Of a DNA stretch of 64,000 nucleotides, positions 4,691-63,777 are shown piece after piece. The translations under genes were made by a program, and so were the position numbers. Origin of the DNA: Taklimakanibacter albus. GTDB lineage: Bacteria > Pseudomonadota > Alphaproteobacteria > Rhizobiales > Aestuariivirgaceae. A model generated the notes under the pieces. It did no database searches, was not told where the DNA came from, and saw nothing but the letters and a program-made list of their open reading frames with translations. Every line of letters starts with the position of its first letter. Positions within the stretch are counted from its first letter, which is position 1. The stretch spans positions 1,944,624 through 2,008,623 of the forward strand of contig NZ_JAENHL010000008.1 in NCBI RefSeq assembly GCF_016595235.1. The letters run 5' to 3'.

Positions 4691-5088
4691 GAGGACAGGT
4701 TCTCCGGACCGAAGGAGGCGGGCAACAGCTCGCCGAGCGTGAAGCTCCGCTTGATGCGGCCGGTCTCGTCGCAGACATGAATGGCGAGATCATCAGCGCC
4801 GAATTCACGCAGCTTCTGGCGGCAGCCGCCACAGGGCGTCACCAGCCCGTCACCAGCGCCGACGACGGCGGCTTCGACGATCTTGCGGCCGCCCGCCAGC
4901 ACCATGGCGGCAATCGCGCCGGCCTCGGCGCAGGTGCCCTGCGGATAGGCGGCATTCTCGACATTGCAGCCGGGATGGACCACGCCGGTCTCGTCCTTCA
5001 CCGCGGCGCCGACCAGGAAACGCGAATAAGGCGCATAGGCCTTGGCCCGCGCCGCGACCGCCGCGGCAATGAGCGCTGCGTCAGGCAT
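4687..5088 (-). CDS. cdd: cytidine deaminase
   Basis: Cdd deaminates cytidine and deoxycytidine to the uridine forms. At 133 residues it matches the short homotetrameric class. The zinc ligands are directly visible as Cys53 in TCAEAGA, Cys86 and Cys89 in TPCGGCRQ. Glu55 is the proton shuttle. The substrate loop NVENAAYPQ precedes them. It lies 1 nt downstream of an ABC permease stop codon and overlaps punA by 4 nt. The product deoxyuridine is a substrate of DeoA in the same operon, so the gene set can degrade both purine and pyrimidine nucleosides brought in by the adjacent transporter. Confidence 0.96.
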   Translation of the reverse strand: MPDAALIAAAVAARAKAYAPYSRFLVGAAVKDETGVVHPGCNVENAAYPQGTCAEAGAIAAMVLAGGRKIVEAAVVGAGDGLVTPCGGCRQKLREFGADDLAIHVCDETGRIKRSFTLGELLPASFGPENLSS

Positions 5089-5089
5089 C

Positions 5090-6073
5090 TTATTTTTCCT
5101 TCACATAGGGCACGCCGCCGGCCTTGGGCGCCACCGCGTGACCGATGAAACCCGCCAGCAGGAAGACGGTCAGAATATAGGGCACGGCCTGCATCAGCTG
5201 CACCGGAACTTCGCCGATGCCGGTGATCGGCACGCCTTGCAGGCGGTTGGCGACCGCTTCGAGCACGCCGAACAGCAGGCAGGCCCACATGGCCGGTATG
5301 GGCCGCCATTTGGCGAAGATCAGCGCCGCCAGGGCGATGAAGCCTTTGCCCGCCGTCATGTTCTCAATGAAGCTGGCGCCTTGGGCGATGGCGAGATAGG
5401 CCCCGCCGAAACCGCACAGAACCCCGCAGCAGGTCACCGCCGCATAGCGCATGGCCGGCACGGAAATGCCGGCGGTGTCGACGGCGGCCGGGTTCTCGCC
5501 CACCGCGCGCAGGCGCAAGCCGAAGCGGGTGCGGTAGAGCAGCCACCAGGTGATCGGCACGGCGAGAAAGGCCATGTAGACGAGGATGTTCTGGCCGGAG
5601 AGGATTTGCGAATAGATCTGTCCGATGACCGGTACGCCGCGCAGCTCGGCGGCGAAGGGCCAGGCGTGCCCCATGAAACGCGCGTCATTGGGGAGTTGCG
5701 GCGTCTGGCCGCCGATATCGAACCAGGTCTCGCCCAATTGCGCGGTCAGGCCGGCGGCGATGAAATTGATCGCCACGCCGGAGACGATCTGATTGCCGCG
5801 ATGGGTGATCGAGGCGAAACCATGAATGAGCGCGAAGAAGACGGAGGCCAGGATGGCGGCGATCAGTCCGGCCCAGGCCGAGCCGGTGAGGGCCGCGACG
5901 GTGCCGGCGGCGAAGGCCCCGACCAGCATCTTGCCTTCGAGGCCAATGTCGAAGACGCCGGCGCGCTCGGAATAGAGCCCGGCGAGACAGGCGAACAGCA
6001 GCGGCACCGAGACGCGGATGGCGGAGCCGAAAATCTGGGCGAAGAGATCAAGCCATTCCATGGCGCCAACCAA
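5090..6073 (-). CDS. nucleoside ABC transporter permease (BPD_transp_2, second permease)
   Basis: This 327-residue integral inner-membrane protein belongs to the sugar/nucleoside permease superfamily of the NupQ/YufQ type. Multiple hydrophobic segments alternate with short loops. The family hallmark YSERAGVFDIGLEGKML lies near residues 30-46, and GIALNFIAAGLTAQL-like sequence near 115 (here GVAINFIAAGLTAQL). The coupling region RLRAVGENPAAVDTAGI is the cytoplasmic loop facing the ATPase. It pairs with the permease at 6494-7606 to form the membrane channel. A 420-bp repeat-filled gap separates the two permease genes, which is unusual inside such an operon. Confidence 0.9.
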   Translation of the reverse strand: MVGAMEWLDLFAQIFGSAIRVSVPLLFACLAGLYSERAGVFDIGLEGKMLVGAFAAGTVAALTGSAWAGLIAAILASVFFALIHGFASITHRGNQIVSGVAINFIAAGLTAQLGETWFDIGGQTPQLPNDARFMGHAWPFAAELRGVPVIGQIYSQILSGQNILVYMAFLAVPITWWLLYRTRFGLRLRAVGENPAAVDTAGISVPAMRYAAVTCCGVLCGFGGAYLAIAQGASFIENMTAGKGFIALAALIFAKWRPIPAMWACLLFGVLEAVANRLQGVPITGIGEVPVQLMQAVPYILTVFLLAGFIGHAVAPKAGGVPYVKEK

Positions 6074-6493
6074 TCTTCGTCATCCCGGCGAAAGCCGCTA
6101 TCGTGTGCACACATCTCACGAGAGGACGCGCCTTTCCCTCTCCCCGCTTCAGCGAGGAGAGGGTGGGGCCCAACGCGTCAGCGTTGGGAGGGTGAGGGGC
6201 ATCCCTGTTACCCTTCTTTCTGACCAACGCAGCCTTCTCGATAGATCCGGTGATCATTTTTGCACTAAGAGATCGGGCGCCCCTCACCCTCCCATTGCTT
6301 CGCAATGGGCCCCTCCCTCTCCCCGCTACGCGGGGCGAGGCAAATCTCAGGCGCCGCGCAAGATGTGTGAATGTGATAGCGGCGAAAGCCGGGATCCATT
6401 GAATAGACGCGAGGCGGGCAGCGCTCATTGTTCTGAGGCATTTTAGGGGATCCCGGCTTTCGCCGGGATGACGAATGAAGGATATTGCGCGCA
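6074..6493. repeat. nested palindromic intergenic repeats inside the nucleoside operon
   Basis: No gene is supported here. The outer parts (about 6078-6098 and 6449-6473) carry the palindromic motif CGTCATCCCGGCGAAAGCCG and its inverse. A second CGGCGAAAGCCGGGATCC copy lies near 6380. Inside, 6099-6117 and 6361-6379 are imperfect inverted repeats (CTATCGTGTGCACACATCT against AGATGTGTGAATGTGATAG, about 15 of 19 matching). Between them is an element of CTCTCCCC/GGGGAGAGG-type hairpins whose 6187-6340 portion is clearly homologous to 29059-29209. This looks like one palindromic element inserted within another. Confidence 0.75.
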
Positions 6494-7606
6494 TCATGCC
6501 TCCTTCGCCTTGAACCATGAGCTGGCAAAGAACCGCGCGATCTGCGGCCTGAACATGTGCTCGAGCGCGCCGGCGAACAGGATGATGAGGCCCTGGACGA
6601 CCACGATCATGTCACGCGTGATGGTCGGCTTCTCGAAGGAGAGATCGGCGCCGCCCTGATAGAGCGCGCCGAAAAGAAGCGCCGACAGCACGATGCCGAA
6701 AGGATGCGAGCGCCCCATCAGCGCGACCGCGATGCCGACGAATCCATAACCGGCGGTGAACTGGAGCAGCAGCCGGTTGGATGCGCCCATGATCTCGTTG
6801 AGCGCCAGGAAGCCGGCGAGGCCGCCCGAGATCATCATGGCGATGACGATGAGACGTTGCGGTTTCATGCCGGCATAGGCGGCGGCGGACGGATTGGCGC
6901 CGAGCACGCGCAATTGATAGCCGAGCGTCGTGTGCCAGAGCAGCAGCCACACGGCGACGGCGCAGACGAGCGCCCAGATGAAAGAGAGATTGAGCGGCGA
7001 GCGGGCGACCGCCATGCCGAGGCCGGCCAGGACGTCATGGATGAGCGGCAGATGCGCATTGGGATCGAAGGTGCGCGTCTCGGGATTCATCGAACCTTTG
7101 GGCGACAGCACGTTGACGAGCAGATAGATCATCAACGCCGAGGCGATGAAATTGAACATGATGGTGGTGATCACCACATGGCTGCCGCGCTTGGCCTGCA
7201 GATAGGCCGGGATGAAAGCCCAGGCGGCGCCGAACAGCGCCGCGGCGATGATGGCGAGCGGAATGATGATCACCATCGGCAGGAAGCCGAGCGACAGGCA
7301 GACCAGCGCCACGCCCAAGCCGCCGAGATAGGCCTGGCCCTCCGCCCCGATATTGAACAGGCCGGCATGGAAGGCGACGGCGAAGGCAAGACCGGTGAAG
7401 ATGAAATTCGTCGTGTAGAACAGCGTGTAGCCGAGCCCGGTGCCATAGCCGAAGGCGCCGTTCAGCATGATGATGACGCTGTCGACCGGCGATTCGCCGA
7501 TGGCCAGAAAGACCAGGCCGGTGACGAGGAAAGCGGCGCTGAGATTGACGAACGGGATGAGGCCGATATCGACCCAGCGCGGCAATTCGCGCGACGGCCC
7601 GCTCAC
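6494..7606 (-). CDS. nucleoside ABC transporter permease (first permease)
   Basis: This is a 370-residue inner-membrane permease of the NupP/YufP type. I chose the GTG at 7606 because it overlaps the ATPase stop codon as GTGA, the usual coupled arrangement. An upstream in-frame extension would run about 27 codons into the ATPase gene. About ten hydrophobic segments are visible. The family signature FHAGLFNIGAEGQAYLGGLG lies near residue 80. The loop YQLRVLGANPSAAAYAGM near 255-272 is the likely ATPase-coupling element. It works with the second permease, the ATPase and the BMP-type binding protein of the same operon. Confidence 0.9.
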   Translation of the reverse strand: MSGPSRELPRWVDIGLIPFVNLSAAFLVTGLVFLAIGESPVDSVIIMLNGAFGYGTGLGYTLFYTTNFIFTGLAFAVAFHAGLFNIGAEGQAYLGGLGVALVCLSLGFLPMVIIIPLAIIAAALFGAAWAFIPAYLQAKRGSHVVITTIMFNFIASALMIYLLVNVLSPKGSMNPETRTFDPNAHLPLIHDVLAGLGMAVARSPLNLSFIWALVCAVAVWLLLWHTTLGYQLRVLGANPSAAAYAGMKPQRLIVIAMMISGGLAGFLALNEIMGASNRLLLQFTAGYGFVGIAVALMGRSHPFGIVLSALLFGALYQGGADLSFEKPTITRDMIVVVQGLIILFAGALEHMFRPQIARFFASSWFKAKEA

Positions 7607-9129
7607 GCCGCCGCTCCCGCCATCATCAGGCCGATCTGCTTCTCCGAGGTCTCGGGCGCGCATTCGCCGGTGATATTGCCGCCGCACATGACCAGCACCC
7701 GGTCGGCCAGGCCACGGATCTCGTCGAGCTCGACGGAAACGAGCAGCACCGCCTTGCCGCGGTCGCGCATGGCGATGAGCCGACGATGGATGAATTCGAT
7801 GGCGCCGACATCGACGCCGCGCGTCGGCTGGCCGACGATGAGAAGATCGGGATCCTGCTCGATCTCGCGCGCCAGCACGATCTTCTGCTGGTTGCCGCCG
7901 GAGAACAGGCCGAGACGCAGATGCGGGTCCTGCGGACGCACGTCGAAATCCTGCATCTTCTTTTCGGTGTCGGCGACGATGGCGCGGCGGTCCTGGAAAA
8001 TGCCCCTCTGATAGATCTCGTCGCCATGATAGCCGAGGATGACATTCTCGCAGGCATCGAAGGACGTCACGATGCCGAGGCGATGGCGGTCCTCCGGCAC
8101 ATGGGCGAGCTTCTGCGCCCGCGCCAGCGCCGCATCGCAGGGCAGTGGCGTGCCGTTGAGCAGGATCTCGCCGGAGAAAGGCGGCCTGATGCCGGTGATC
8201 GCCTCGAGAAGCTCGCTCTGCCCGTTGCCGGCGACGCCGGCAATGCCGACGATCTCGCCGGCGCGCACGGCGAAGGAGACGCCATTGACCTTGACCGTGC
8301 CGGCTGAGTCCTTGACCACGAGATTTTTCACCTCGAGCACGATGCGCTCAGGCTGGCGCTCGGCCTTGACGACGCGCAGCAGCACCCGGCGTCCGACCAT
8401 GAGCTCGGCGAGCTGCTCGGGCGACGTCTCGCGGGTCGGCAGCGTCGCGACCATCTCGCCGCGGCGCATGACCGACACCCGATCGGTGATCGCCATGATC
8501 TCCTTGAGCTTGTGGGTGATGAGGACGATCGTCTTGCCCTGATCCTTCAGCTGCCTGAGGATGCGGAAGAGATGCTCGGCCTCGCTCGGCGTGAGCACGC
8601 CGGTCGGCTCGTCGAGAATGAGCACCTCGGCGCCGCGATAAAGCGCCTTCAGGATTTCGACGCGCTGCTGCAGGCCGACGGCCAGGTCATCGATGAGCGC
8701 GTCGGGATCGACGGTCAGGCCATAGTCCTTCTCGAGCCGCTCCAATTCGCGGCGGACCTTGGCGCGGCCGCTGTTGAGCAGGAAACCGCCTTCGGCGCCC
8801 AGCATGATATTCTCGAGCACGGTGAATTTGCCGACCAGCATGAAATGCTGATGCACCATGCCGATGCCGGCCTTGATGGCGTCGGTGGGACTGGCAATAC
8901 GCGTCGGCTTGCCGTCGACCTGGATGTCACCCGAATCGGCCTGATAGAAGCCGAACAGGATCGACATCAAGGTCGATTTGCCGGCGCCGTTCTCGCCGAC
9001 AATGCCATGGATGGTGCCCTTCTCGACCTCGAGCGAGATGTCCTTGTTGGCGTGGACCGGCCCGAAACGCTTGTCGATATGGGCAAGCGCGATGGCGGGG
9101 TGAGCCGCCATCGCCTTGTCGGATGTCAT
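7603..9129 (-). CDS. nucleoside/sugar ABC transporter ATPase with two ABC domains
   Basis: This 508-residue protein is a fused double ABC ATPase of the RbsA/NupO class. Domain 1 (about residues 10-250) has Walker A GENGAGKST, a Q-loop within MVHQHFMLV, the signature LAVGLQQRVEIL and Walker B VLILDEPTGVLTP. Domain 2 (about 265-505) has a degenerate Walker A, GVAGNGQSE, the signature LFSGGNQQKIVLARE and Walker B LLIVGQPTRGVDVG. An asymmetric pair with one degenerate site is normal for this class. It starts 13 nt after the binding-protein gene and overlaps the first permease gene by 4 nt. Confidence 0.94.
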   Translation of the reverse strand: MTSDKAMAAHPAIALAHIDKRFGPVHANKDISLEVEKGTIHGIVGENGAGKSTLMSILFGFYQADSGDIQVDGKPTRIASPTDAIKAGIGMVHQHFMLVGKFTVLENIMLGAEGGFLLNSGRAKVRRELERLEKDYGLTVDPDALIDDLAVGLQQRVEILKALYRGAEVLILDEPTGVLTPSEAEHLFRILRQLKDQGKTIVLITHKLKEIMAITDRVSVMRRGEMVATLPTRETSPEQLAELMVGRRVLLRVVKAERQPERIVLEVKNLVVKDSAGTVKVNGVSFAVRAGEIVGIAGVAGNGQSELLEAITGIRPPFSGEILLNGTPLPCDAALARAQKLAHVPEDRHRLGIVTSFDACENVILGYHGDEIYQRGIFQDRRAIVADTEKKMQDFDVRPQDPHLRLGLFSGGNQQKIVLAREIEQDPDLLIVGQPTRGVDVGAIEFIHRRLIAMRDRGKAVLLVSVELDEIRGLADRVLVMCGGNITGECAPETSEKQIGLMMAGAAA

Positions 9130-53186: not shown

Positions 53187-54302
53187 CTAAGCTATGCGCA
53201 GCTGGGTGCCCGGATCGAAGAACACCGCCTTGTCGAGATTGAAGGCGAGCTTCATGCGGCTGCCGGCCGCCACACGGGCATCGGCCCTGAGCCGCGCCAC
53301 CACCTGCTTGCCGCCCAGATGGGTGACGGCAAAAGTGTCTGAGCCGGCGGGCTCGACCACCTCGATCTGGCATTCCGACAGAACGACACCGGCGGAATTG
53401 CGGTCCGCCCCGTCGGGATCGGTCAGCGCTTCCGGCCTGATACCGAAAATGACATTGCCGCCGGCATGTTTGGCGATCCGGCCGGCGCCCTCGGGCAAGG
53501 CCAGCGTCAAAGGATCGCCCGAGCGTTGCGGCATCGAGAGGCGAAGCCCGTGGCCATTCGCCTCGACGCTGGCGGGGATGAGATTCATCGCCGGCGAGCC
53601 CATGAAATCGGCGACGAACATATTGGACGGATGATTGTAGATCTCGGCCGGGGTGCCGAATTGCTGCAGGATGCCGTCCTTCAGCACCGCGATGCGCGAG
53701 GCGAGCGTCATCGCCTCGATCTGGTCATGCGTCACATAGACGATGGTGGTCTTCATCGACTGGTGCAGGCGCTTGATCTCGGTGCGCATGTCGACACGCA
53801 GTTTGGCGTCGAGATTGGACAGCGGCTCATCAAAGAGGAAGACCAGAGGCCGGCGCACCAGAGCGCGGCCCATGGCGACGCGCTGGCGCTGGCCGCCCGA
53901 CAGCTGGCTCGGCTTGCGGTCGAGCAGATGCTTGATCTGCAAGGTCTCGGAGACGTCGTTCACCGCCTTGTCGCGCTCCGGCTTCGGCACGCCCTTGATC
54001 TCCATGCCGAAGGCGATGTTCTGCGCCACCGTCATGTTGGGATAGAGCGCATAGGACTGGAACACCATGGCGATGTCGCGCTCGGACGGATGCAGATCGT
54101 TCACCTTGCGGCCATTGATGTGGATCTCGCCCGCGGTGATCGTCTCGAGACCGGCAATGGTGTTGAGCAAGGTCGACTTGCCGCAGCCCGAGGGACCGAC
54201 AAGGACGAGAAAGCCGCCTTCTTCGATGGCGAGATCGATGCCCTTCAGCACATCGACATTGCCGAAGCGCTTTTCGAGGCTCTTGATTTCAAGAAACGGC
54301 AT
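53187..54302 (-). CDS. sugar ABC transporter ATPase (UgpC/MalK/GtsD type)
   Basis: This 371-residue protein has an ABC domain (about residues 1-240) with Walker A VGPSGCGKSTLLNTIAGL, Q-loop MVFQSYALYPNMTVAQNI, signature QLSGGQRQRVAMGRAL, Walker B VFLFDEPLSNLDAKLR and H-loop YVTHDQIEAM. A C-terminal TOBE/OB-fold region follows (about 250-371), as in MalK and UgpC. There it binds regulatory partners. The gene follows the second permease with only 3 nt between. It is specific to this operon by position, although MalK-type ATPases can serve several transporters. Confidence 0.93.
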   Translation of the reverse strand: MPFLEIKSLEKRFGNVDVLKGIDLAIEEGGFLVLVGPSGCGKSTLLNTIAGLETITAGEIHINGRKVNDLHPSERDIAMVFQSYALYPNMTVAQNIAFGMEIKGVPKPERDKAVNDVSETLQIKHLLDRKPSQLSGGQRQRVAMGRALVRRPLVFLFDEPLSNLDAKLRVDMRTEIKRLHQSMKTTIVYVTHDQIEAMTLASRIAVLKDGILQQFGTPAEIYNHPSNMFVADFMGSPAMNLIPASVEANGHGLRLSMPQRSGDPLTLALPEGAGRIAKHAGGNVIFGIRPEALTDPDGADRNSAGVVLSECQIEVVEPAGSDTFAVTHLGGKQVVARLRADARVAAGSRMKLAFNLDKAVFFDPGTQLRIA

Positions 54303-54305
54303 GTT

Positions 54306-55187
54306 TCACCCCTTGACCGCGCCCGCCATCAATCCACGCACGAAATACCGGCCCGACACGACATAGACGATGAGGGTCGGCAAAGCGGCGAGAATGGCGC
54401 CGGCAAAATGCACATTGTATTCCTTGACGCCCGTCGACGAGCTGACGAGGTTGTTGAGCGCCACCGTCATCGGCAGCGAATAGGAATCGGCGAAGGAAAC
54501 GCCGAACAGGAAGTCGTTCCAGATATTGGTGAACTGCCAGATCACCGTGACGACGATGATGGGGCCCGAGCTCGGCAGCAGGATACGGCGGAAGATCTGG
54601 AAGAAGCTGGCGCCATCGATCATCGCGGCGCGCACCAGCTCGGTCGGGAAGGCTTCGTAGTAGTTGCGGAAGAACAGAGTGGTGAAGCCGATGCCATAGA
54701 TGGCATGGACGAGCGAGAGGCCCCAGGTGGTGCCGGCAATGCCCAGAAGCCCCAGCACCTTGGCCATCGGGATGAGCACGATCTGGAACGGGATGAAGCA
54801 GGAGAGCAGCATCAGCGTGAAGACCAGATTGTCGCCGGGAAAGCGCCATTTGGTCAGCACATAACCATTGAGGGCGCCGAGCAGCGTCGATGCAGCGACC
54901 GCCGGCACGACCATCAGGATCGAATTGAGGAAATAGGGTTTCAAGCCGGTCGGCTGGACGCCGATCTGCGCCGTCGACCAGGCGCTGAACCACGGATCGA
55001 GCGTGAATTGCTGCGGCAAGGACAGCATGTCGCCCTGGCGGATCTCGTCCAGAGGCTTCACCGAATTCACCAGCATCACGTAAAGCGGCAGCAGGTAATA
55101 GAAGGCGAAGAGGATGAGAGCGCAATAGATCAGGATGCGCGTCAGCGACGCCGTCCTGACCGCGGTATCGGGGGCGGCGGCGCTCAT
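54306..55187 (-). CDS. gtsC: glucose/mannose-type ABC transporter permease 2
   Basis: This 293-residue MalG-type permease has six hydrophobic segments (the first at about 18-40, LIYCALILFAFYYLLPLYVM). The EAA coupling loop is YEAFPTELVRAAMIDGASFF. It begins within the stop codon of the first permease gene (4-nt overlap) and ends 3 nt before the ATPase gene. Glucose/mannose specificity is inferred from the GtsA-like binding protein, since permeases of this class look alike. The C-terminus VVSGRYFVRGLMAGAVKG is the usual MalG-like ending. Confidence 0.88.
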   Translation of the reverse strand: MSAAAPDTAVRTASLTRILIYCALILFAFYYLLPLYVMLVNSVKPLDEIRQGDMLSLPQQFTLDPWFSAWSTAQIGVQPTGLKPYFLNSILMVVPAVAASTLLGALNGYVLTKWRFPGDNLVFTLMLLSCFIPFQIVLIPMAKVLGLLGIAGTTWGLSLVHAIYGIGFTTLFFRNYYEAFPTELVRAAMIDGASFFQIFRRILLPSSGPIIVVTVIWQFTNIWNDFLFGVSFADSYSLPMTVALNNLVSSSTGVKEYNVHFAGAILAALPTLIVYVVSGRYFVRGLMAGAVKG

Positions 55188-56086
55188 GATTTCCGCCCCG
55201 TGCTGAGTTCGGAATAGAGATAAGGCACGATGACGGACGCGATCATGATCAGCATGATGGTCGCCGAGGCGGCGCCGATGCCCATGGAGTTGCGGGTGAA
55301 GGTGTAGGAATACATGAAGGTGGCGGGAAGCTCAGTGGCCTGGCCCGGCCCGCCGCCGGTGAGCGCGACCACCAGATCGTAAGCCTTGATGGCGAGATGC
55401 GCCAGCACCACGAAAGCCGACAGGAAGACCGGGCGCATCATCGGAATGATGATGCGGCGGTAGATGGTGAGATTGGAGGCGCCGTCCATCTGCGCCGCCT
55501 TGATGATCTCATTGTCGACGCCGCGCAGGCCCGCCAGGAACATCGCCATGACGAAACCCGACGATTGCCAGACCGCCGCGATCACCACGGTGTAGATCGC
55601 GAAGTTACGGTCCTTGATCCAGGTGAAGGAGAAACTTTCCCAGCCCCATTGATGCATCGTGTGCTCGAGACCGATGCCGGGGTCGAGAAACCATTTCCAG
55701 GCGGTGCCGGTGACGATGAAGGAGAGCGCCATCGGATAGAGATAGATCGGGCGCAGCACGCCCTCGGCGCGGATCTTCTGGTCGAGCAATATGGCGAGGC
55801 CTAAGCCCAGCACCGAGCAGATGATGATATAAAGCGAGCCGAAAATGCCGAGATTGCCGAGCGCCCGCCACCAATGCGGCAAGGCCCAGAGCTTGGAATA
55901 ATTCTCAAGACCGACCCAGCCGAAGGACGGCAGCATCTTCGAGTCGGTGAAGGAGAGATAGCCGGTGAACAGGATGAAGCCATAGACGAAGATCAGAACC
56001 GCGGCGAAGCTCGGCGCCAGCACGAGGCGCGGCAAGAGCTCCTGCAGGTAATTCCTCGCTGATGGCGCCGTGGCGGCTTGGGCCAT
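55184..56086 (-). CDS. gtsB: glucose/mannose-type ABC transporter permease 1
   Basis: This 300-residue MalF-type permease has six helices, the first at about residues 20-43 (LVLAPSFAAVLIFVYGFILF). The EAA loop is GLRGVDNEIIKAAQMDGASN. FSFTWIKDRNFAIYTVVIAA is typical of the glucose/mannose branch. It starts about 120 nt after the binding-protein stop, and a terminator-like hairpin lies between them. It heads the coupled permease-permease-ATPase block. Confidence 0.88.
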   Translation of the reverse strand: MAQAATAPSARNYLQELLPRLVLAPSFAAVLIFVYGFILFTGYLSFTDSKMLPSFGWVGLENYSKLWALPHWWRALGNLGIFGSLYIIICSVLGLGLAILLDQKIRAEGVLRPIYLYPMALSFIVTGTAWKWFLDPGIGLEHTMHQWGWESFSFTWIKDRNFAIYTVVIAAVWQSSGFVMAMFLAGLRGVDNEIIKAAQMDGASNLTIYRRIIIPMMRPVFLSAFVVLAHLAIKAYDLVVALTGGGPGQATELPATFMYSYTFTRNSMGIGAASATIMLIMIASVIVPYLYSELSTGRKS

Positions 56087-56162
56087 GGCTTCACCCCCCT
56101 ACTCTTGAGATGACGGTTGAAACTTTGCCCGCTTTTCGGGCCGTGTGCCAGAGAGAAAGCAA

Positions 56163-56188
56163 AGGCCCCGGCGTGTGGACCGGGGCCT
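56163..56188 (-). terminator. hairpin terminator/attenuator after the sugar-binding protein gene
   Basis: On the minus strand AGGCCCCGG pairs with CCGGGGCCT around an 8-nt loop, followed by a T-rich but interrupted tract (TTGCTTTCTC). It probably raises binding-protein mRNA over permease mRNA, as at choX/choW. Confidence 0.65.
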
Positions 56189-56206
56189 CGCTGTTCTCTG
56201 TATCGA

Positions 56207-57448
56207 TTACTTCGCAGCCGCGATGGCGGTGACGAGTTCCTTCACGGCGGCATCGGAGTCGAGCTCGCCATTGAAGTGCCGGGTCACGACGTCATAAAGC
56301 GCGTTCTTGACCGCCGCCGGAGCGGCATAGCCATGCGCCATCGAGCCCATCAGCGTGCCGGCGCCGGCCGCTTCGGCCAGATCCTTCATGCCTTTCTTGC
56401 CGCAATCGTCGAAAGCGGTGTCGGGCACGTCGGTGCGGGCCGGGACGGAGCCCTTGACCACGTTGAAGGACGACTGGAAGGCGGGGTTCTCGATGGCCGA
56501 AGCCATCTCGAGCTGGGCCTTCTGCTTGTCCTCGCCGACCTTGAACATCATGAACATGTCGGAGTTGAAGGTGACCGAGCCTTGCGTGCCGGGGAAGCGG
56601 ATGCAGACGAAGTCGGCACCCGGCTTCTGGCCGGCCTTGAGGAACTCGCCCTTGGCCCAGTCGCCCATGAATTGCAGGCCGGCCTTGCCTTCGATGACCA
56701 TGGCGGAAGCGAGGTTCCAGTCGCGGCCGGAGAAGTTGGCATCGACATAGGAGCGCAGCTTCGCCATGCGGTCGAAAGCTTCCTTCATCTTGGGCGAGCC
56801 CAAGGCTTCCGGATCGAGATCGATCATCGCCTTCTTGTAGAAGTCGTTGCCGAGCGAGAGCACGACACCGTCGAAGATCGTCGCGTCCTGCCAGGGCTGG
56901 CCGCCATGGGCGACCGGGGTGATGCCGGCGGCCTTGAACTTGTCGAGAAGGGCGACGAGCTCGTCCCAGCTCTCCGGCGCCTTGCCGCCCGCGGCATCGA
57001 GCGCCTTCTTGTTGATCCACACCCAGTTGGTGGAGTGCACGTTCACCGGGGCGGCGATCCATTTGCCGTCATATTTGGCGAAGCCCTGCAGCGCCGCCGG
57101 GATGACCTTGTCCCAGCCTTCCTTGTCGGCCACGGCACCGAGATCGCCCACCACGCCCTGCTTGGCCCAGTCGGTGATGTCGAAGCCGAGCGCCTGCACG
57201 GCGGTGGGCGGGTTGCCTGCGGTGACGCGGGCGCGCAAGGCGGTCATCGCCTGCTCACCGCCGCCGCCGGCGACCGGCATGTCCTGCCAGGTGACGCCCT
57301 TGGATTCGAGATCCTTTTTCAAAACATCTAGGGCCGCGGCCTCGCCGCCCGAGGTCCACCAGTGGAGCACTTCCACCTGGTCGGCCGCCTGGGCGCTCAA
57401 AGCGAGCCCAGAGGCAAATACGCTGGTCAGCAGCAATCTACGCAACAT
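56207..57448 (-). CDS. gtsA: glucose/mannose-type ABC transporter binding protein
   Basis: This 413-residue periplasmic protein starts at the ATG at 57448 behind AGGGAGGA. The signal peptide covers about residues 1-22 ([18 protein letters not shown]). The mature start [20 protein letters not shown] and the segment [19 protein letters not shown] resemble GtsA of Pseudomonas and related glucose/mannose-binding proteins. The next elements are [15 protein letters not shown] and [20 protein letters not shown]. Two Cys in the C-terminal half (VCIRFPG, DDCGKKG) may form a disulfide. It is the first gene of the operon, and the LacI-type regulator diverges upstream. Confidence 0.88.
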
Positions 57449-57659
57449 GAATTCCTCCCTGAGTTGCGATACGCATTCCGGCGCCCGCACAGGCACCGGT
57501 CAATCATCGGCAAAGCTAGAAGCCCGGGCTCTTCAGCGCCGTAATCGGAAGTCTTCGAAGCGGGAAGCTTCGCGCGCCGCGACAGCCCTGGCAAATGAAA
57601 TGAATAGTCTCCTCCCTCGGCCTAGGTTGTTCTTGTTGATCCCGGAACCGTGCCGAGAC

Positions 57660-57673
57660 CTGTAACGTTACAG
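57660..57673. promoter_or_regulatory. LacI-type operator O1 (CTGTAACGTTACAG)
   Basis: This is a perfect 14-bp palindrome with the central AACGTT typical of LacI/GalR-family sites. It lies 212 bp upstream of gtsA and 124 bp upstream of the lacI-type gene, in the 348-bp divergent region that holds no gene. Confidence 0.8.
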
Positions 57674-57778
57674 ATTTTCCTTGTCAACAGGGCCGGAAGC
57701 CTGTTGATGAAAACACCCTTTAATTGTTGGATGATTGACATGGGAGTCAGAAGAATCAATATGATCGCGCCCATTTTC

Positions 57779-57790
57779 TGAAACGTTACA
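57779..57790. promoter_or_regulatory. LacI-type operator O2 (TGAAACGTTACA)
   Basis: It differs from O1 by one base over 12 positions and ends 6 bp before the regulator start codon, so binding here would block the regulator's own expression. The spacing O1-O2 is about 118 bp centre to centre, compatible with looping. Confidence 0.75.
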
Positions 57791-57796
57791 AGCCCC

Positions 57797-58843
57797 ATGG
57801 ACCGCTCCCGCAGCAAGCCGCCGCACCGCCCTTCGCAAGGGCCGCCGACGCTGCGCACGATCGCCGGACTGACCGGCCTCGGCGTCACCACGGTATCGCG
57901 GGCGCTGAAAGACGGGCCGGAACTCTCGCATGAGACCAAGGCCCGGGTGCGCGCGGTGGCGGACCAGATCGGCTACCGGCCGCATCGCGCCGGCGTGCGC
58001 CTCAAGACCGGGCGCACCTTCGTGATCTCCTTCGTGCTCAACCAGGCCGACGATATGAGCGATTACGCGAGGCGCCTGATCATGGGCATCAGCGATGCCT
58101 TGCGCGGCACGCAATATCACCTGCAGGTCCTGCCGCAGAATATCGACCAGGACCCGATCGATCCGGTGCGCTACATCGTCGACACGGCGGCGGCGGACGG
58201 TCTCATCCTCACCCATTCCGAGCCGCAGGATCTGCGCGTCAAGATGCTGCTCGAGCGCGATTTCCCCTTCATCACTTTCGGGCGCACCGAACTGGCGACG
58301 CCGCATCCCTATATCGACACCGACAATTTCGACTTCGCCTATCGCGCCGCGCAAGCGCTGCTCGCGCGCGGGCGGAAACGCATCGTCATCGTGCTGCCGC
58401 CCAAGCAATTCACCTATAGCGGCCATCAGCAGGCCGGCTATCGCCGCGCCGTGTTCGAAGCCGGGCTCGAGCCGCGCATGGCCGAAGGCGTCGACCTCTA
58501 TTCACCGGCCTTCACCTTGCGCGCCTATGCCAACCGGCTGGCGCGCGAGGCCGGAGCGCCCGACGGCATCATCTGCGGCTCGGAGATGCAGGCGCTCGGC
58601 ATGATGCTGGGCTTTCAGGATGCGGGCTTCGTCATCGGGCGCGATGTCGACATCGCCAACAAGAAGACGTCCAACATCCTCGATCTGGTGCAGATGCCGA
58701 CATTGCAGTATTTCGAGGACCTGATCCGCGCCGGGCATGACTGCGCTGAATACCTGCTCAAGCGCATCGAAGGCCGCGAGCCGGTGAGCACCCTGCAGCG
58801 CCTCGACCTGACGAGCTTCAGCGAAGGCAGCACGCAATCCTGA
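57797..58843 (+). CDS. LacI family transcriptional regulator
   Basis: This 348-residue protein has a helix-turn-helix at about residues 18-65 (LRTIAGLTGLGVTTVSRALK). The hinge helix region is GYRPHRAGVRLKTGRT. A periplasmic-binding-protein-like ligand domain follows (about 70-340), with DGLILTHSEPQDLRVKML and RKRIVIVLPP. The 17-residue Pro/Arg-rich N-terminal extension before the HTH is longer than in LacI. It diverges from the sugar ABC operon and faces two AACGTT operators, one at its own start, so it probably represses both. A sugar or sugar phosphate of the pathway is the likely inducer. Confidence 0.92.
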   Translation: MDRSRSKPPHRPSQGPPTLRTIAGLTGLGVTTVSRALKDGPELSHETKARVRAVADQIGYRPHRAGVRLKTGRTFVISFVLNQADDMSDYARRLIMGISDALRGTQYHLQVLPQNIDQDPIDPVRYIVDTAAADGLILTHSEPQDLRVKMLLERDFPFITFGRTELATPHPYIDTDNFDFAYRAAQALLARGRKRIVIVLPPKQFTYSGHQQAGYRRAVFEAGLEPRMAEGVDLYSPAFTLRAYANRLAREAGAPDGIICGSEMQALGMMLGFQDAGFVIGRDVDIANKKTSNILDLVQMPTLQYFEDLIRAGHDCAEYLLKRIEGREPVSTLQRLDLTSFSEGSTQS

Positions 58844-58963: not shown

Positions 58964-61879
58964 ATGAAGAGGGATGCCGTGCAGAGGCCGGGACGGCTCA
59001 AAGTACCGATTCTTCCGGGCAATGTGACGTCTTTGCGCCGGATCATAGACCATGCTGCGATCGGCATGGCGCTGCTTGGCAAGGATGGTCGTCTCCTTTA
59101 CGCGAACCGCTCCTTCCAGACACAGACCGGCTATACGGCAAGGCAATCCGCCGGACTCAAGCTCGCCGACATCACGCATCCGCAAGAGCAGCGAAAGCTC
59201 CGGCCCACCGCGCGCGGCAAGGACGGCGTCGAGCTCTGCTATGTGCGCCGGGACGGCTCACTCTTTCATGCGCTGACCAGTCTTTCAAAGCTGGGCAAGG
59301 GCCATGGAAAATTCGACGCAATTTTGCAACTGACGCCCATCGAAGCGCGCAAGGAGCGCGACCAGGTGCTGGCCGAGAACGAATGGCGCTGGAACCAGGC
59401 TCTGCGTAGCGCCGAGCAAGGCGTCTGGGACATCGACATCGCGAACAACCGGATCTGGATCTCGCCCTATTGGGAAGGCGTGCTCGGCTTCGGATCGGAC
59501 AAGGCCGACGTCTTCAGGAAGAAATGGCTGGCCCGCCTGCATCCCGACGATCGCGCGCATATGCAACGCGCGATCGATGGCCTGAGAGGCGGCAGTCTCT
59601 CCGAAACCCATGAAACCTACCGGCTGCACCGCGCCGACGGCGTCTGGATCTGGATCCTGTCACGCGGCAAGGTCACCCACCGCGCACCCGACGGTTCAGC
59701 GCTGCGCATCATCGGCACCACCGCGGATATCACGCGGCAGAAAGAGACCGAGGCGCTGCTCGCCGCCACGACCGATCGGCTCGACATCGCCCTCGCTGCC
59801 GGCGGCGTCGGCATCTATGACGTGGATGTCCGCACCGGCCTGCGCAATTTCGATGACCGGACGCTGGCGCTTCATGGGCTCAAGCGCGCGACATTTGACA
59901 GCACGCAGAAAGCCTGGGAACACGCCGTCCACCCTGACGACCTCGCCCGGGTCCTGCAGCAGATCGCTACCACCCGCGCATCGCAGCAGAACACGACGCA
60001 ATATGACTATCGTGTCATTCATCCGTCGGGGGCGATCCGTCACATCCATGCCATCGCCCGCTTGATCCGGGCGCCCGACGGCGCAGCACTGCGCGTCATC
60101 GGCGTGTGCCGGGACGTCACCGAGGAGGCCGAACGGACACAACGGCTGCAGGAGGCATTGACACAACTCGCCGCCACCACCGAACGGCTGGAGCTCGCTC
60201 TCGAAGCCGGTGGGATCGGTATTTTCGACGTCGACATCGCCGCCGACAAACGCCGGTTCGACGACCGGATACTGGCGCTCCATGGTCTGAGCCGCGAGGA
60301 TTATGACGGCTCGCGCGAGGCCTGGGCGCAGACCATCCACCCTGATGACCGGGCGCGGCTCATCGAGCAGATCACCGCCGACCGGGCCTCGGGCGAGGCC
60401 TCGCAGCACTATGATTTCCGTGTCGTGCACCCGCGCTCGGGCGTCGTCCGCCATATCCGCTCCATAACCCGGCAGATCCACGCGGTCGACGGCGCCGTGC
60501 AGAACGTCGTCGGCGTCAGCTGGGATGTCACAAGCGAGGTCGAGCAGACAACCAGGCTGCTGGAGACGGCCGCCCGGCTCGCCACCACGACCGACCGATT
60601 GAATCTCGCTCTCGAGGCGGGCGATGTCGGCACGTTCGACACCGATGTCGTCGCCGGCAGGCACATGCTCGACGCCCGGACCCTCACCCTCCTCGGCAGA
60701 GAGCCAGGCGATGCCGGTCACACGGTGGAGACCTGGATGGGCGCCATCCACCCGGAGGATCGCCCACGGATCGAGCAGGAATTCGCGGCAAACCTGGCGT
60801 CGACAGTAACGTCCGCCCAGTATGATTTTCGCGTGGTGCACAAGCGCAGCGGCGCCATCCGGCATATCCGTTCCCTGACCCGGTTGATCCGTGACGAGAT
60901 GGGCAAGGCACTGCGCGCCACCGGCGCGTGCTGGGACATCACCGATCACGTCGAGCGCGCCCGGCAATTGCGCGAGGCACTGTCCCTGCTCGACGCGATC
61001 ATGAACGCCACGCCCGATCTGGTTTTCGCCAAAGATCTCGCCGGCCGCTATCTCATCACCAACAAGGCGGCCGAGAAGGTCACCGGGCATTCCGTCGCCG
61101 ATGTCGTCGGCAAGGACGATACGGAGATCTACCCGGCCGAGACTGCCGCGATCTACATCGCCAATGATCGCCACGCATTGGCCACCGGCCAGCCCCATAC
61201 GGTCGAAGAGACCGGCGTCACCGACGGCGTGCCGCGTATATGGCTGACGAACAAGGCGCCGCTGCGCGATGCCCATGGCCATGTCATCGGTCTCGTCGGC
61301 GTCGCGCGTGACATCACCGAGATCAAGAAGGCCGAGACGGCGCTGCGCGAGACGCTCGAGCTGCTCGATGCGGTGATGCGCGGCACGCCGGACCTCATCT
61401 TTGTCAAGGATCGCGACAGCCGCTACCTCGTCGCCAATGAGGCGCTCGGGCGGGTGCTTGGCCGCAAGACCGAGGACATGCTGGGCTTGCGGCCGGCCGA
61501 TGTTCATCCGCCGCATGTCGCCGAAAAGCTGATGGCGCATGACCGCCGGATCATGACGAGCGGCGCCGCCCAGACGATCGAGGAAACCATCCTCGTCGAC
61601 GATGTCTCCCGTATCTTCCTGTCGACCAAGGCACCACGCCGCGACGAGCACGGCAATGTCATCGGCATCATCGGCATCGCCCGCGATATCACCGACATGA
61701 AGACGGCCGAGGCCGCGGTCATGGCGCTGAACCAGCGGCTGCAGATCGCCATCGAGGCCTCGGGCGGCGGCGTCTTCGACGCCGACATGACGAAGCCGGA
61801 ATTCCGCTGGGGCTCGCGCATGTACGAGCTCTACGACCTTCCTCGCGACGCCTATGACGGCACGCTCGAGCAATGCTGA
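58964..61879 (+). CDS. multi-PAS sensor protein, N-terminal part of a frameshifted PAS-GGDEF-EAL gene
   Basis: This 971-residue ORF consists almost entirely of PAS domains with no membrane segment. They lie at about residues 24-125, 140-258, three near-identical PAS_3-type units starting at 267, 403 and 540, two of another type at 675-790 and 798-912, and half a PAS from 922. It ends abruptly in DAYDGTLEQC inside that PAS. The missing half is the first 75 residues of the overlapping ORF at 61873. A GGAGG lies about 10 nt before the ATG; a GTG five codons in has an AGAGGGA. As annotated it would lack an output domain, so it is best viewed as the 5' part of one diguanylate cyclase/phosphodiesterase gene. 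Confidence 0.85.
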   Translation: MKRDAVQRPGRLKVPILPGNVTSLRRIIDHAAIGMALLGKDGRLLYANRSFQTQTGYTARQSAGLKLADITHPQEQRKLRPTARGKDGVELCYVRRDGSLFHALTSLSKLGKGHGKFDAILQLTPIEARKERDQVLAENEWRWNQALRSAEQGVWDIDIANNRIWISPYWEGVLGFGSDKADVFRKKWLARLHPDDRAHMQRAIDGLRGGSLSETHETYRLHRADGVWIWILSRGKVTHRAPDGSALRIIGTTADITRQKETEALLAATTDRLDIALAAGGVGIYDVDVRTGLRNFDDRTLALHGLKRATFDSTQKAWEHAVHPDDLARVLQQIATTRASQQNTTQYDYRVIHPSGAIRHIHAIARLIRAPDGAALRVIGVCRDVTEEAERTQRLQEALTQLAATTERLELALEAGGIGIFDVDIAADKRRFDDRILALHGLSREDYDGSREAWAQTIHPDDRARLIEQITADRASGEASQHYDFRVVHPRSGVVRHIRSITRQIHAVDGAVQNVVGVSWDVTSEVEQTTRLLETAARLATTTDRLNLALEAGDVGTFDTDVVAGRHMLDARTLTLLGREPGDAGHTVETWMGAIHPEDRPRIEQEFAANLASTVTSAQYDFRVVHKRSGAIRHIRSLTRLIRDEMGKALRATGACWDITDHVERARQLREALSLLDAIMNATPDLVFAKDLAGRYLITNKAAEKVTGHSVADVVGKDDTEIYPAETAAIYIANDRHALATGQPHTVEETGVTDGVPRIWLTNKAPLRDAHGHVIGLVGVARDITEIKKAETALRETLELLDAVMRGTPDLIFVKDRDSRYLVANEALGRVLGRKTEDMLGLRPADVHPPHVAEKLMAHDRRIMTSGAAQTIEETILVDDVSRIFLSTKAPRRDEHGNVIGIIGIARDITDMKTAEAAVMALNQRLQIAIEASGGGVFDADMTKPEFRWGSRMYELYDLPRDAYDGTLEQC
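59762..60961 (+). repeat. three tandem intragenic PAS-coding repeats of about 408 bp
   Basis: Units begin at about 59762, 60170 and 60581, each encoding ATTDRL or ATTERL, then LALEAGG-like, IHPDDR-like and YDFRVVHP-like motifs, and ending with a GV-WDVT-like strand. Two further related units of about 123 codons follow (60986-61708). They are protein-level duplications, not mobile elements. Confidence 0.75.
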
Positions 61880-61884
61880 GCTTC
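61866..61884 (+). other. apparent one-base deletion joining PAS and GGDEF-EAL reading frames
   Basis: The sequence GAGCAATGCTGAGC gives E-Q-C-stop in the first frame. Adding one G (CAATGGCTGAGC) restores E-Q-W-L-S-F-I-H-A-D-D, exactly the conserved W-x-x-x-I-H-x-D-D of a PAS_3 domain. The downstream frame is the one expected after loss of one base. No slippery heptamer is visible. Confidence 0.85.
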
Positions 61885-63777
61885 ATTCATGCCGACGACG
61901 TGCCCAAGGTGCTCAAGGCCTATGAGGCCGCGCTCAACGAGACCTTCGTCTTCAGCATGGATTTCCGGATCCGCCGGCAGCGCTCAGGCGAATTGCGGCA
62001 TATACGCTCCTTCGCCCGGGTGATCCGCGACGAAGCCGGCGTGGCGGTGCGCGCCGTGGGCATGAATTTCGACATCACCGATCACAAGGAGCTGGCGGAG
62101 GCGCTGTTCGAGGAGAAGGAGCGCCTGCGCATCACGCTGCATTCGATCGGCGACTCGGTGATCACCACCGATGCCGAGGCGCGTATCACCTTCATGAATC
62201 CGATCGCCGAGGAGATGACCGGCTGGCCGGCGGCCGAAGCGGCGGGCCGGCCGCTCAGCGAGGTCTTCCGGATCGTCGACGAGATCACCGGCGCGCCGTT
62301 TACCGATCCGGTCGCGGCATGCCTTGCGCAGATGCGCCCCTATCACCTCGATGACGGCGCCGTGCTCATCGCGCGCGACGGCGAACGGCGCAATGTCCGC
62401 GATTCGGCGGCGCCGGTGCGCGCCACTTCGGGCGACATCATCGGCGCCGTATTGGTGTTCCAGGACGTGACCAAGGCGCGCAGCCTGCAGCAGGCGCTCG
62501 AACATTCCGCCACCCATGACGGCCTGACCGGATTGCCCAACCGCACCGCCTTCGAACGCAATCTTCAGGCGGCGCGCGAGGCCATATCCAGGAAACGCGA
62601 GCACGTCCTGTGCTTCATAGATCTCGACCGCTTTAAGATCGTCAATGACGACGCCGGCCATGCGGCGGGCGACGCCCTGCTGCGCGACGTCGCCAATCTG
62701 TTGCGCCGGGCCTGCCGCGCCGATGACGTCGCCGCGCGCCTGGGCGGTGACGAATTTGCGCTTCTCCTGCACGACTGCGGCGTCAGCGACGGCGAGCGGC
62801 TGGCCCAGCGCTTCCTGAAGAACCTCGCCGATCTGCGCTTCACCTGGAACGATCGCGCCTATCAGATCGGCGCCAGCATAGGCCTGACCCTCATCGCGAC
62901 GGACGCCCCACCGACGGACGAATTGATGAGCCAGGCCGATATCGCCTGCTACACCGCGAAATTCGCGGGGCGCAACCAGATCGCGGTCTATGGCGGCGCC
63001 GGCAGCCCGGCGCAACGGCACCATCGCGAGGTGCAGGTCGCGGCCGGCATCCGCAATGCCATCGAGAGTGACCGCTTCCGTCTCTTCGCGCAGGAGGTCA
63101 TCGACCTGAAACCGGCGAGCGGCACAAGACGGCATTTCGAGATCCTGCTCAGGATGCTGGACGAGAGGGGCGCCGTCATGGAGCCGGCGAGCTTCATCCC
63201 GGCATCGGAACGCTACGACCTGATGGGCAGCATCGACCGCTGGGTCATCCGCACCACCTTCCGCGCCTATGGCGCGCGCCTGCGTCAGACGCCGGATATG
63301 ACGATCGCCCTCAATCTTTCCGCCAATTCGCTCAACGATCCGTTCTTATGGCCGTTCCTGCAGGAGGAGCTCGCGGCCTCGGGGCTGCCGGCGGGGCGGA
63401 TCAATTTCGAGATCACCGAGACCGCCGTGATCAACAACCTGGCGGTCGCCAAGCAATTCCTGTCGCGCGCGCGCGCCGCCGGCTGCGGCGTCCTCCTCGA
63501 TGATTTCGGCACCGGCCTGAGCTCGTTCATCTATCTGAGGCAATTTCCGGTCGACGGCGTCAAGATCGACGGCAGCTTCATCCGCCAGATGACCGAGAAC
63601 CCGATCGACCGCACCATCGTCGAATCGATCAACGCCATCGGCCATCGTCTCGGCGCCGTCACCGTCGCCGAGCAGGTCGAGGACGAAGCCACACTCGAGC
63701 TGGTGCGCGCCATGGGCGTCGACCGGGCGCAAGGTTACGCCATCTCGAGGCCCACGCCCTTCGACACTCTGTTCTGA
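61873..63777 (+). CDS. GGDEF-EAL c-di-GMP enzyme, C-terminal part of a frameshifted gene
   Basis: This 634-residue ORF starts with the second half of a PAS domain (residues 1-75, MLSFIHADDVPKV), then a complete PAS (about 84-205). A GGDEF domain follows (about 210-375) with an intact GGDEF at 291-295 and an RADD inhibitory I-site at 282-285. The EAL domain (about 390-625) has HFEILLR, with Glu423 in an EIL variant, NFEITE, DDFGTG and KIDGSF. Both synthesis and hydrolysis of c-di-GMP are possible. The ATG overlaps the upstream stop by 7 bp and has no clear ribosome binding site. Confidence 0.9.
   Translation: MLSFIHADDVPKVLKAYEAALNETFVFSMDFRIRRQRSGELRHIRSFARVIRDEAGVAVRAVGMNFDITDHKELAEALFEEKERLRITLHSIGDSVITTDAEARITFMNPIAEEMTGWPAAEAAGRPLSEVFRIVDEITGAPFTDPVAACLAQMRPYHLDDGAVLIARDGERRNVRDSAAPVRATSGDIIGAVLVFQDVTKARSLQQALEHSATHDGLTGLPNRTAFERNLQAAREAISRKREHVLCFIDLDRFKIVNDDAGHAAGDALLRDVANLLRRACRADDVAARLGGDEFALLLHDCGVSDGERLAQRFLKNLADLRFTWNDRAYQIGASIGLTLIATDAPPTDELMSQADIACYTAKFAGRNQIAVYGGAGSPAQRHHREVQVAAGIRNAIESDRFRLFAQEVIDLKPASGTRRHFEILLRMLDERGAVMEPASFIPASERYDLMGSIDRWVIRTTFRAYGARLRQTPDMTIALNLSANSLNDPFLWPFLQEELAASGLPAGRINFEITETAVINNLAVAKQFLSRARAAGCGVLLDDFGTGLSSFIYLRQFPVDGVKIDGSFIRQMTENPIDRTIVESINAIGHRLGAVTVAEQVEDEATLELVRAMGVDRAQGYAISRPTPFDTLF

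Follow-up and report, generated by a model that had tools for sequence, protein, structure and literature searches.

The diguanylate cyclase DgcE of Escherichia coli combines a MASE1 domain with three PAS domains, a GGDEF domain and a degenerate EAL domain (PMC6510439). Degenerate diguanylate cyclase genes are described from Shigella flexneri, where over-expression in E. coli of dgcE, dgcQ and dgcN, which carry stops before the GGDEF domain, led to a higher signal from a c-di-GMP reporter; the signal was reduced by dgcM and pdeR, bands for both frames were obtained for dgcQ and dgcM, and a second dgcE band matched no reading frame (PMC11327459). For Vibrio fischeri it was reported that 75 of 82 suspect loci contained a sequence error, the majority of them frameshifts, and that adjacent ORFs became one after correction; a truncated GGDEF domain was made whole by correcting one of the frameshifts, and a small number of frameshift pseudogenes proved to be genuine (PMC2330054). 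Frameshift genes that occur as singletons, a class taken here from the legend of figure 5 of PMC3711429, are considered there to be likely indel mutations or sequencing errors.

We analyzed a window of 64 000 nt (the whole stretch of DNA, to which all positions refer) from Taklimakanibacter albus and focused on two overlapping ORFs which together resemble a single PAS-GGDEF-EAL gene. The case is an ordinary one: a gene of a known type carries a private, recent break of one base. It has the look of an everyday mutation of recent date, or of a slip in the assembly, rather than of a new kind of system. As in the Shigella genes dgcE, dgcQ, dgcN and dgcM, a stop before the GGDEF domain is followed by an intact GGDEF frame, although those nonsense mutations were confirmed by whole-genome sequencing, whereas here a putative one-base deletion is seen in the deposited sequence. 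As in V. fischeri, two adjacent ORFs correspond to one gene in a sister strain, but the V. fischeri loci were resequenced. Among the literature matches listed, nothing was specific to such a gene in Rhizobiales or Mesorhizobium.

Domain layout and catalytic motifs

ORF1 (58964..61879, + strand, ATG start, 971 aa) forms the N-terminal sensor part. All of its Pfam matches are of the PAS type (seven families listed at E 0.01) and no output domain was found among them. ORF2 (61873..63777, + strand, ATG start, 634 aa) matches PAS, GGDEF and EAL families. Both share the 7 bp ATGCTGA (61873..61879, + strand), which contains the start of ORF2 and the stop of ORF1, so that the translation of ORF1 ends with GTLEQC and a stop, while ORF2 begins with MLSFIHADD. 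These coordinates and the overlap agree with the preliminary description, as does the total of nine PAS domains, which we obtained from our own segmentation together with Pfam: seven whole domains and a partial one in ORF1, the remainder of the eighth and a whole ninth in ORF2. The N-terminal part of PAS 8 (61727..61873, + strand) is read in the ORF1 frame and the C-terminal part (61873..62106, + strand) covers positions 27–88 of the 89 positions of the PAS_3 profile; the tail of ORF1 alone gave no Pfam match. In the protein of the sister genome (locus L057, see below) a PAS_3 match at residues 947–1033, counted from a scanned stretch that begins at codon 2, runs across the break point and covers profile positions 3–88 of 89, and the two parts are joined in two Mesorhizobium homologues (L054 and L055) as well. 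The earlier view that both ORFs hold complementary halves of one PAS domain is therefore right for a single split PAS_3 domain, but the pieces are nearer to one quarter and three quarters than to halves.

Downstream of the break, ORF2 contains PAS 9 (62122..62487, + strand; residues 84–199 as PAS and 89–203 as PAS_4), the GGDEF domain (62509..62979, + strand; residues 213–369) and the EAL domain (63049..63753, + strand; residues 393–627). A GGDEF motif together with an RxxD inhibition site, the combination used to recognize an active diguanylate cyclase, is found in ORF2 (RADDVAARLGGDEF at residue 282), with GGDEF-domain motifs at residues 282 and 291. The EAL motifs have catalytic roles, and the patterns E.LLR, NLSA, E[IV]TET, DDFGTG, KIDG, AEQVE and Q[GA] are all present in ORF2; some of these patterns were composed after looking at the sequence, and independent support comes from the alignment of ORF2 residues 72–631 to PDB entry 5xgb (PA0861) with an E-value of 1e-134. 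Both enzyme activities are putative. PA0861, which we take to be RbdA of Pseudomonas aeruginosa, has the same PAS-GGDEF-EAL architecture as ORF2, but the solved chain comprises 568 residues, whereas in the gene of the window a much longer PAS array preceded these domains.

At the level of the whole protein we scored the sequences with NCBIfam NF007298 (PRK09776, diguanylate cyclase of the DgcE type), presumably the model for E. coli DgcE (YegE), with a curated cut-off of 1135 bits. The two halves in the window score below it (357.4 for ORF1 and 788.2 for ORF2). The cut-off is passed by the intact sister gene (1159.4) and by the Mesorhizobium homologue L054 (1150) and missed by two further homologues, L056 (932.9) and L006 (951.5). 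The likeness to DgcE lies in the order of domains, with GGDEF and EAL placed after more than one PAS domain. In contrast to the N-terminal MASE1 membrane domain, three PAS domains and degenerate EAL domain given for DgcE (PMC6510439), the gene studied here has nine PAS domains and an EAL domain with catalytic motifs. Neither Pfam nor hydropathy points to a MASE1 domain of the DgcE type: MASE1 is not one of the seven families that ORF1 matches in Pfam at E 0.01, and no strongly hydrophobic stretch was found (the highest mean hydropathy over 19 residues is 1.26).

By regarding the PAS array more closely we observed tandem duplicates between window positions 59768 and 61711, where PAS 3, 4 and 5 are 47–53% identical to each other and PAS 6 and 7 share 48% identity. 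Since relatives vary in protein length (scanned stretches of 1604, 1477 and 1210 aa), PAS copies may have been gained and lost among them. The intact gene, with its tandem PAS copies and variable length, is more instructive than the break.

Homologous genes across the junction

Among the matches listed, the closest counterpart is found in a sister genome of the same genus (Rhizobiales bacterium Y(2018), SCPD01000002.1; genome G001, locus L057; the genome under study is G000). In the genome search, among the matches listed, ORF2 is 98% identical to a part of a frame of 1623 codons in this genome, and the same frame holds the match to ORF1, with 96% identity over the 970 residues at the N-terminal end of the sister protein. 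The sister gene itself is a single uninterrupted gene of 1604 codons, in keeping with the roughly 1600 residues estimated before. Its alignment to the window comprises 4815 columns with one gap, of one base, which falls at the break within the ATGCTGA overlap. When the last 3.4 kb are aligned under default scoring, an extra, offsetting pair of one-base gaps appears near window position 60536, which keeps the frame. The single frame-changing gap relative to the sister is thus the one base at the break, and the idea of one gene split by a one-base deletion at this very place is supported by the comparison.

The preliminary description had also proposed to compare the locus in related strains. 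We found the frame open across the junction in homologues from Mesorhizobium sp. IRAMC:0171 (L054, 71% identity), Mesorhizobium sp. 1M-11 (L055, 73%), Luteimonas panaciterrae (L056, 64%) and a further genome (G033, locus L006, 50%). Together with the sister gene (L005 and L057 are counted once), one frame runs through the junction in all five homologues examined, a count that leaves out two Silvimonas loci (34–35% identity) and the remaining listed genome matches; L056 aligned poorly over the stretch of the junction PAS (22%), and L056 and L006 count only as open frames. Separate genes with the same stop–start overlap, the arrangement envisaged as the opposite case, were sought in these five homologues and seen in none, so neither a conserved two-gene arrangement as expected for translational coupling nor a conserved frame transition as expected for programmed frameshifting occurs in any of them. 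A break in one genome with intact homologues elsewhere is the pattern of a singleton frameshift. Against these homologues the break is private to this assembly, and the indel is very probably both private and recent, whether it arose in the cell or in the assembly. For three other genomes of the same genus (G002, G003 and G004) the best matches, among those listed, cover about the first 380 residues of ORF2 with 44–52% identity, and no full-length counterpart was seen among them.

The position of the two frames allows a second view of the junction, namely that programmed frameshifting joins them during translation. ORF2 lies in the −1 frame relative to ORF1 and both frames are open together over positions 61858–61879; a ribosome could change frame only within this range because the ORF2 frame is open only from 61858. 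However, no slippery heptamer was found by eye in those 22 bases, all five homologues encode the protein in one frame, and recoding clusters rest on a conserved shift position (PMC3711429, in its treatment of such clusters). We consider this explanation hardly credible. It was rejected together with an evolved coupling of two genes, as no homologue examined carries the split.

Several other relatives of the gene were noticed. The Luteimonas homologue (4984–8658, 64% identical) belongs to a gammaproteobacterium, unlike the Rhizobiales and Mesorhizobium relatives, and horizontal transfer of the PAS-GGDEF-EAL gene is possible in this case. Two neighbouring PAS-GGDEF paralogues, L002 and L003, lie in the genome under study (contig C7, 697187–700647); they are 51% and 47% identical to ORF2, their matches cover its first ~379 residues and stop before the EAL domain, and no EAL domain was found for L002 among the Pfam matches of one scanned frame. 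In addition, a 47% identical relative in another genome (L010; G038, contig C7, 742847–743953) contains one TGA in the matched frame and is possibly another broken PAS-GGDEF gene.

Constraint on the two halves

Next, we compared the substitutions between the window and the sister genome. The dN/dS values are 0.122 for ORF1 (970 codons) and 0.077 for ORF2 (633 codons). For ORF2 the residue changes unique to the genome under study number 2, 3 and 3 with L054, L055 and L056 as outgroups, compared with 3, 3 and 5 for the sister; for ORF1 the corresponding values are 6, 5 and 6 compared with 8, 9 and 3. With these three outgroups no consistent excess of changes was observed on the branch of the broken gene. 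The ORF1 count with L056 leans in the opposite direction (6 to 3), with too few changes to be weighed, and the outgroups differ in PAS number, which makes the ORF1 alignments less sure. By a rough Poisson estimate, which takes the observed count as its own baseline and serves as a guide only, clearly more changes would be expected than are seen if ORF2 had drifted neutrally for more than roughly one tenth of the branch. Both halves thus seem otherwise intact and free of decay, and because of this constraint the deletion should be either very recent or an assembly error.

The same constraint bears on the view that the split is a working one, in which two proteins are coupled through the stop–start overlap and selection keeps the enzyme free of the sensor. 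Purifying constraint acts on each half, the TGA/ATG overlap would permit re-initiation, and the stopped dgcE, dgcQ and dgcN genes of S. flexneri still raised the c-di-GMP reporter (PMC11327459, as above). The constraint is, however, mostly older than the break, which weakens this view, and none of the five homologues examined has the split. Moreover, the overlap cuts through a PAS domain and is a by-product of the deletion. While GGAGG is located ten bases 5′ of the ORF1 start, no Shine–Dalgarno-like run was found in the bases before the ORF2 ATG (TATGACGGCACGCTCGAGCA). The Shigella case itself is mixed, as the reporter signal fell with dgcM and pdeR and no reading frame accounts for the second dgcE band (PMC11327459). 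A working split is therefore very unlikely. Even less weight is given to the special case of a useful real split that yields a free 634-residue PAS-GGDEF-EAL enzyme, released from a nine-PAS sensor, and a 971-residue PAS array still acting on it in trans; if true, c-di-GMP control would have been rewired recently and in a single step, and the change would be observed as it happens.

Assembly quality and origin of the gap

In order to judge the deposited sequence we compared 800 kb of the sister genome (contig C22) with 864 kb of the genome under study (contig C8), using non-overlapping ORFs of at least 100 codons that were at least 90% aligned and at least 85% identical and that had at least 10 mismatches, 55% of them at third positions. 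Three earlier counts were set aside. The first flagged 26 of 263 sister genes looked up in this genome and 20 of 262 in the reverse direction and was dropped, because in 19 and 18 of these genes, respectively, the break begins within the first 200 nt of the stop-to-stop frame, often before any likely start. When frames were taken from the first start codon, 5 of 296 and 3 of 293 genes were flagged, seven of these eight being read as artefacts of start choice because their 5′ part lacks third-position bias; the split gene alone among the eight shows this bias on both sides of the break. A further count, over the 800 kb, gave 55 of 565 and 41 of 567 genes (12 and 8 with 'both halves coding'); as its criterion was the first stop downstream of a shift of any kind, a run-based test took its place.

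With the run-based test, which is blind to shifted runs shorter than 150 nt, 565 sister genes (622 kb) were looked up in the genome under study and 11 candidates were listed; when those coding-like on both sides are considered, there are 2 frame shifts, the split gene included, and 3 nonsense changes in short genes. In the reverse direction 567 genes (627 kb) gave 9 candidates, with 2 frame shifts and 1 nonsense change coding-like on both sides. The second frame shift in the genome under study is a 10-base gap in a 469-codon gene outside the window (contig C8, about 1384332–1385719), which we take to resemble a fused uracil-DNA glycosylase. Both frame shifts in the sister are one-base differences, one of them with a second gap 66 bases on. 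Frame shifts are rare and about equally so in both assemblies, and the split is more than a chance observation, the gene being one of the 2 frame-shifted among 565. These similar numbers (2/565 and 2/567) argue against a systematically indel-prone assembly; the control leaves room for one isolated error.

Such an error, in the assembly or in base calling, would mean that the strain has an intact gene and that the gap exists only in the deposited sequence. This is a serious possibility, to which we give somewhat less than even odds. Both frames are open and constrained everywhere else, no other assembly compared has the gap, and an error would produce precisely such a lack of decay; a single one-base break in 622 kb of compared coding sequence also fits the residual base-call errors of a good assembly, and in V. 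fischeri adjacent ORFs were likewise fused when frameshift errors were corrected (PMC2330054). On the other hand, frame shifts are no more frequent here than in the sister assembly, the site corresponds to a GG pair in the sister with no long homopolymer, and confirmed frameshift pseudogenes are also listed among the V. fischeri loci (PMC2330054). The predicted hairpin at the break site, nearly the same in the window and in the sister stretch, is no stronger than in shuffled sequence (z-scores 0.47 and −0.25), which argues against an error at this site; for the same reason a hot spot of DNA structure, be it mutational or in sequencing, was rejected.

The best explanation remains a real mutation in the cell, for which we estimate a probability of roughly one half. 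The ancestral single gene would have encoded a soluble PAS9-GGDEF-EAL protein of ~1600 residues of the PRK09776 type, in which a private and very recent deletion of one base occurred inside the eighth PAS domain in this strain. We infer that the deletion would lie in the cell rather than in the assembly alone and that protein and activity would be affected. Translation in the first frame would stop at 61879 and leave a 971-residue sensor array without enzyme. The enzyme part would persist as an open, undecayed frame with low output by re-initiation at the overlapping ATG or from internal starts, and the enzyme would carry one whole and one partial PAS domain and thus be cut off from most of its sensors. 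The likeliest outcome predicted from the two frames is a sensor array without output and at most a low level of re-initiation of the enzyme. Re-initiation at the ORF2 start is possible, but this start has no Shine–Dalgarno-like run and the overlap arose with the deletion.

For annotation, ORF1 and ORF2 are best regarded as a single gene that is either broken or misread. Should the deletion be real, a nine-PAS sensor would be linked to its c-di-GMP enzyme in the sister but separated from it in this strain, a natural difference that would offer a small test of the role of long PAS arrays.

A plasmid search with 901 bases spanning the break gave no match. Opposite ORF1, an antisense frame of 725 codons is open on the − strand (window 59696–61873) with a TTG start at the break region; most probably it merely mirrors the codon bias of this GC-rich gene. 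Directly upstream of the split gene (window 53187–58843) we observed genes of a sugar-type ABC transporter on the − strand (substrate binding, two permeases and an ATPase, of which, among the matches listed, only the ATPase passes a curated cut-off) and a LacI-type regulator on the + strand.
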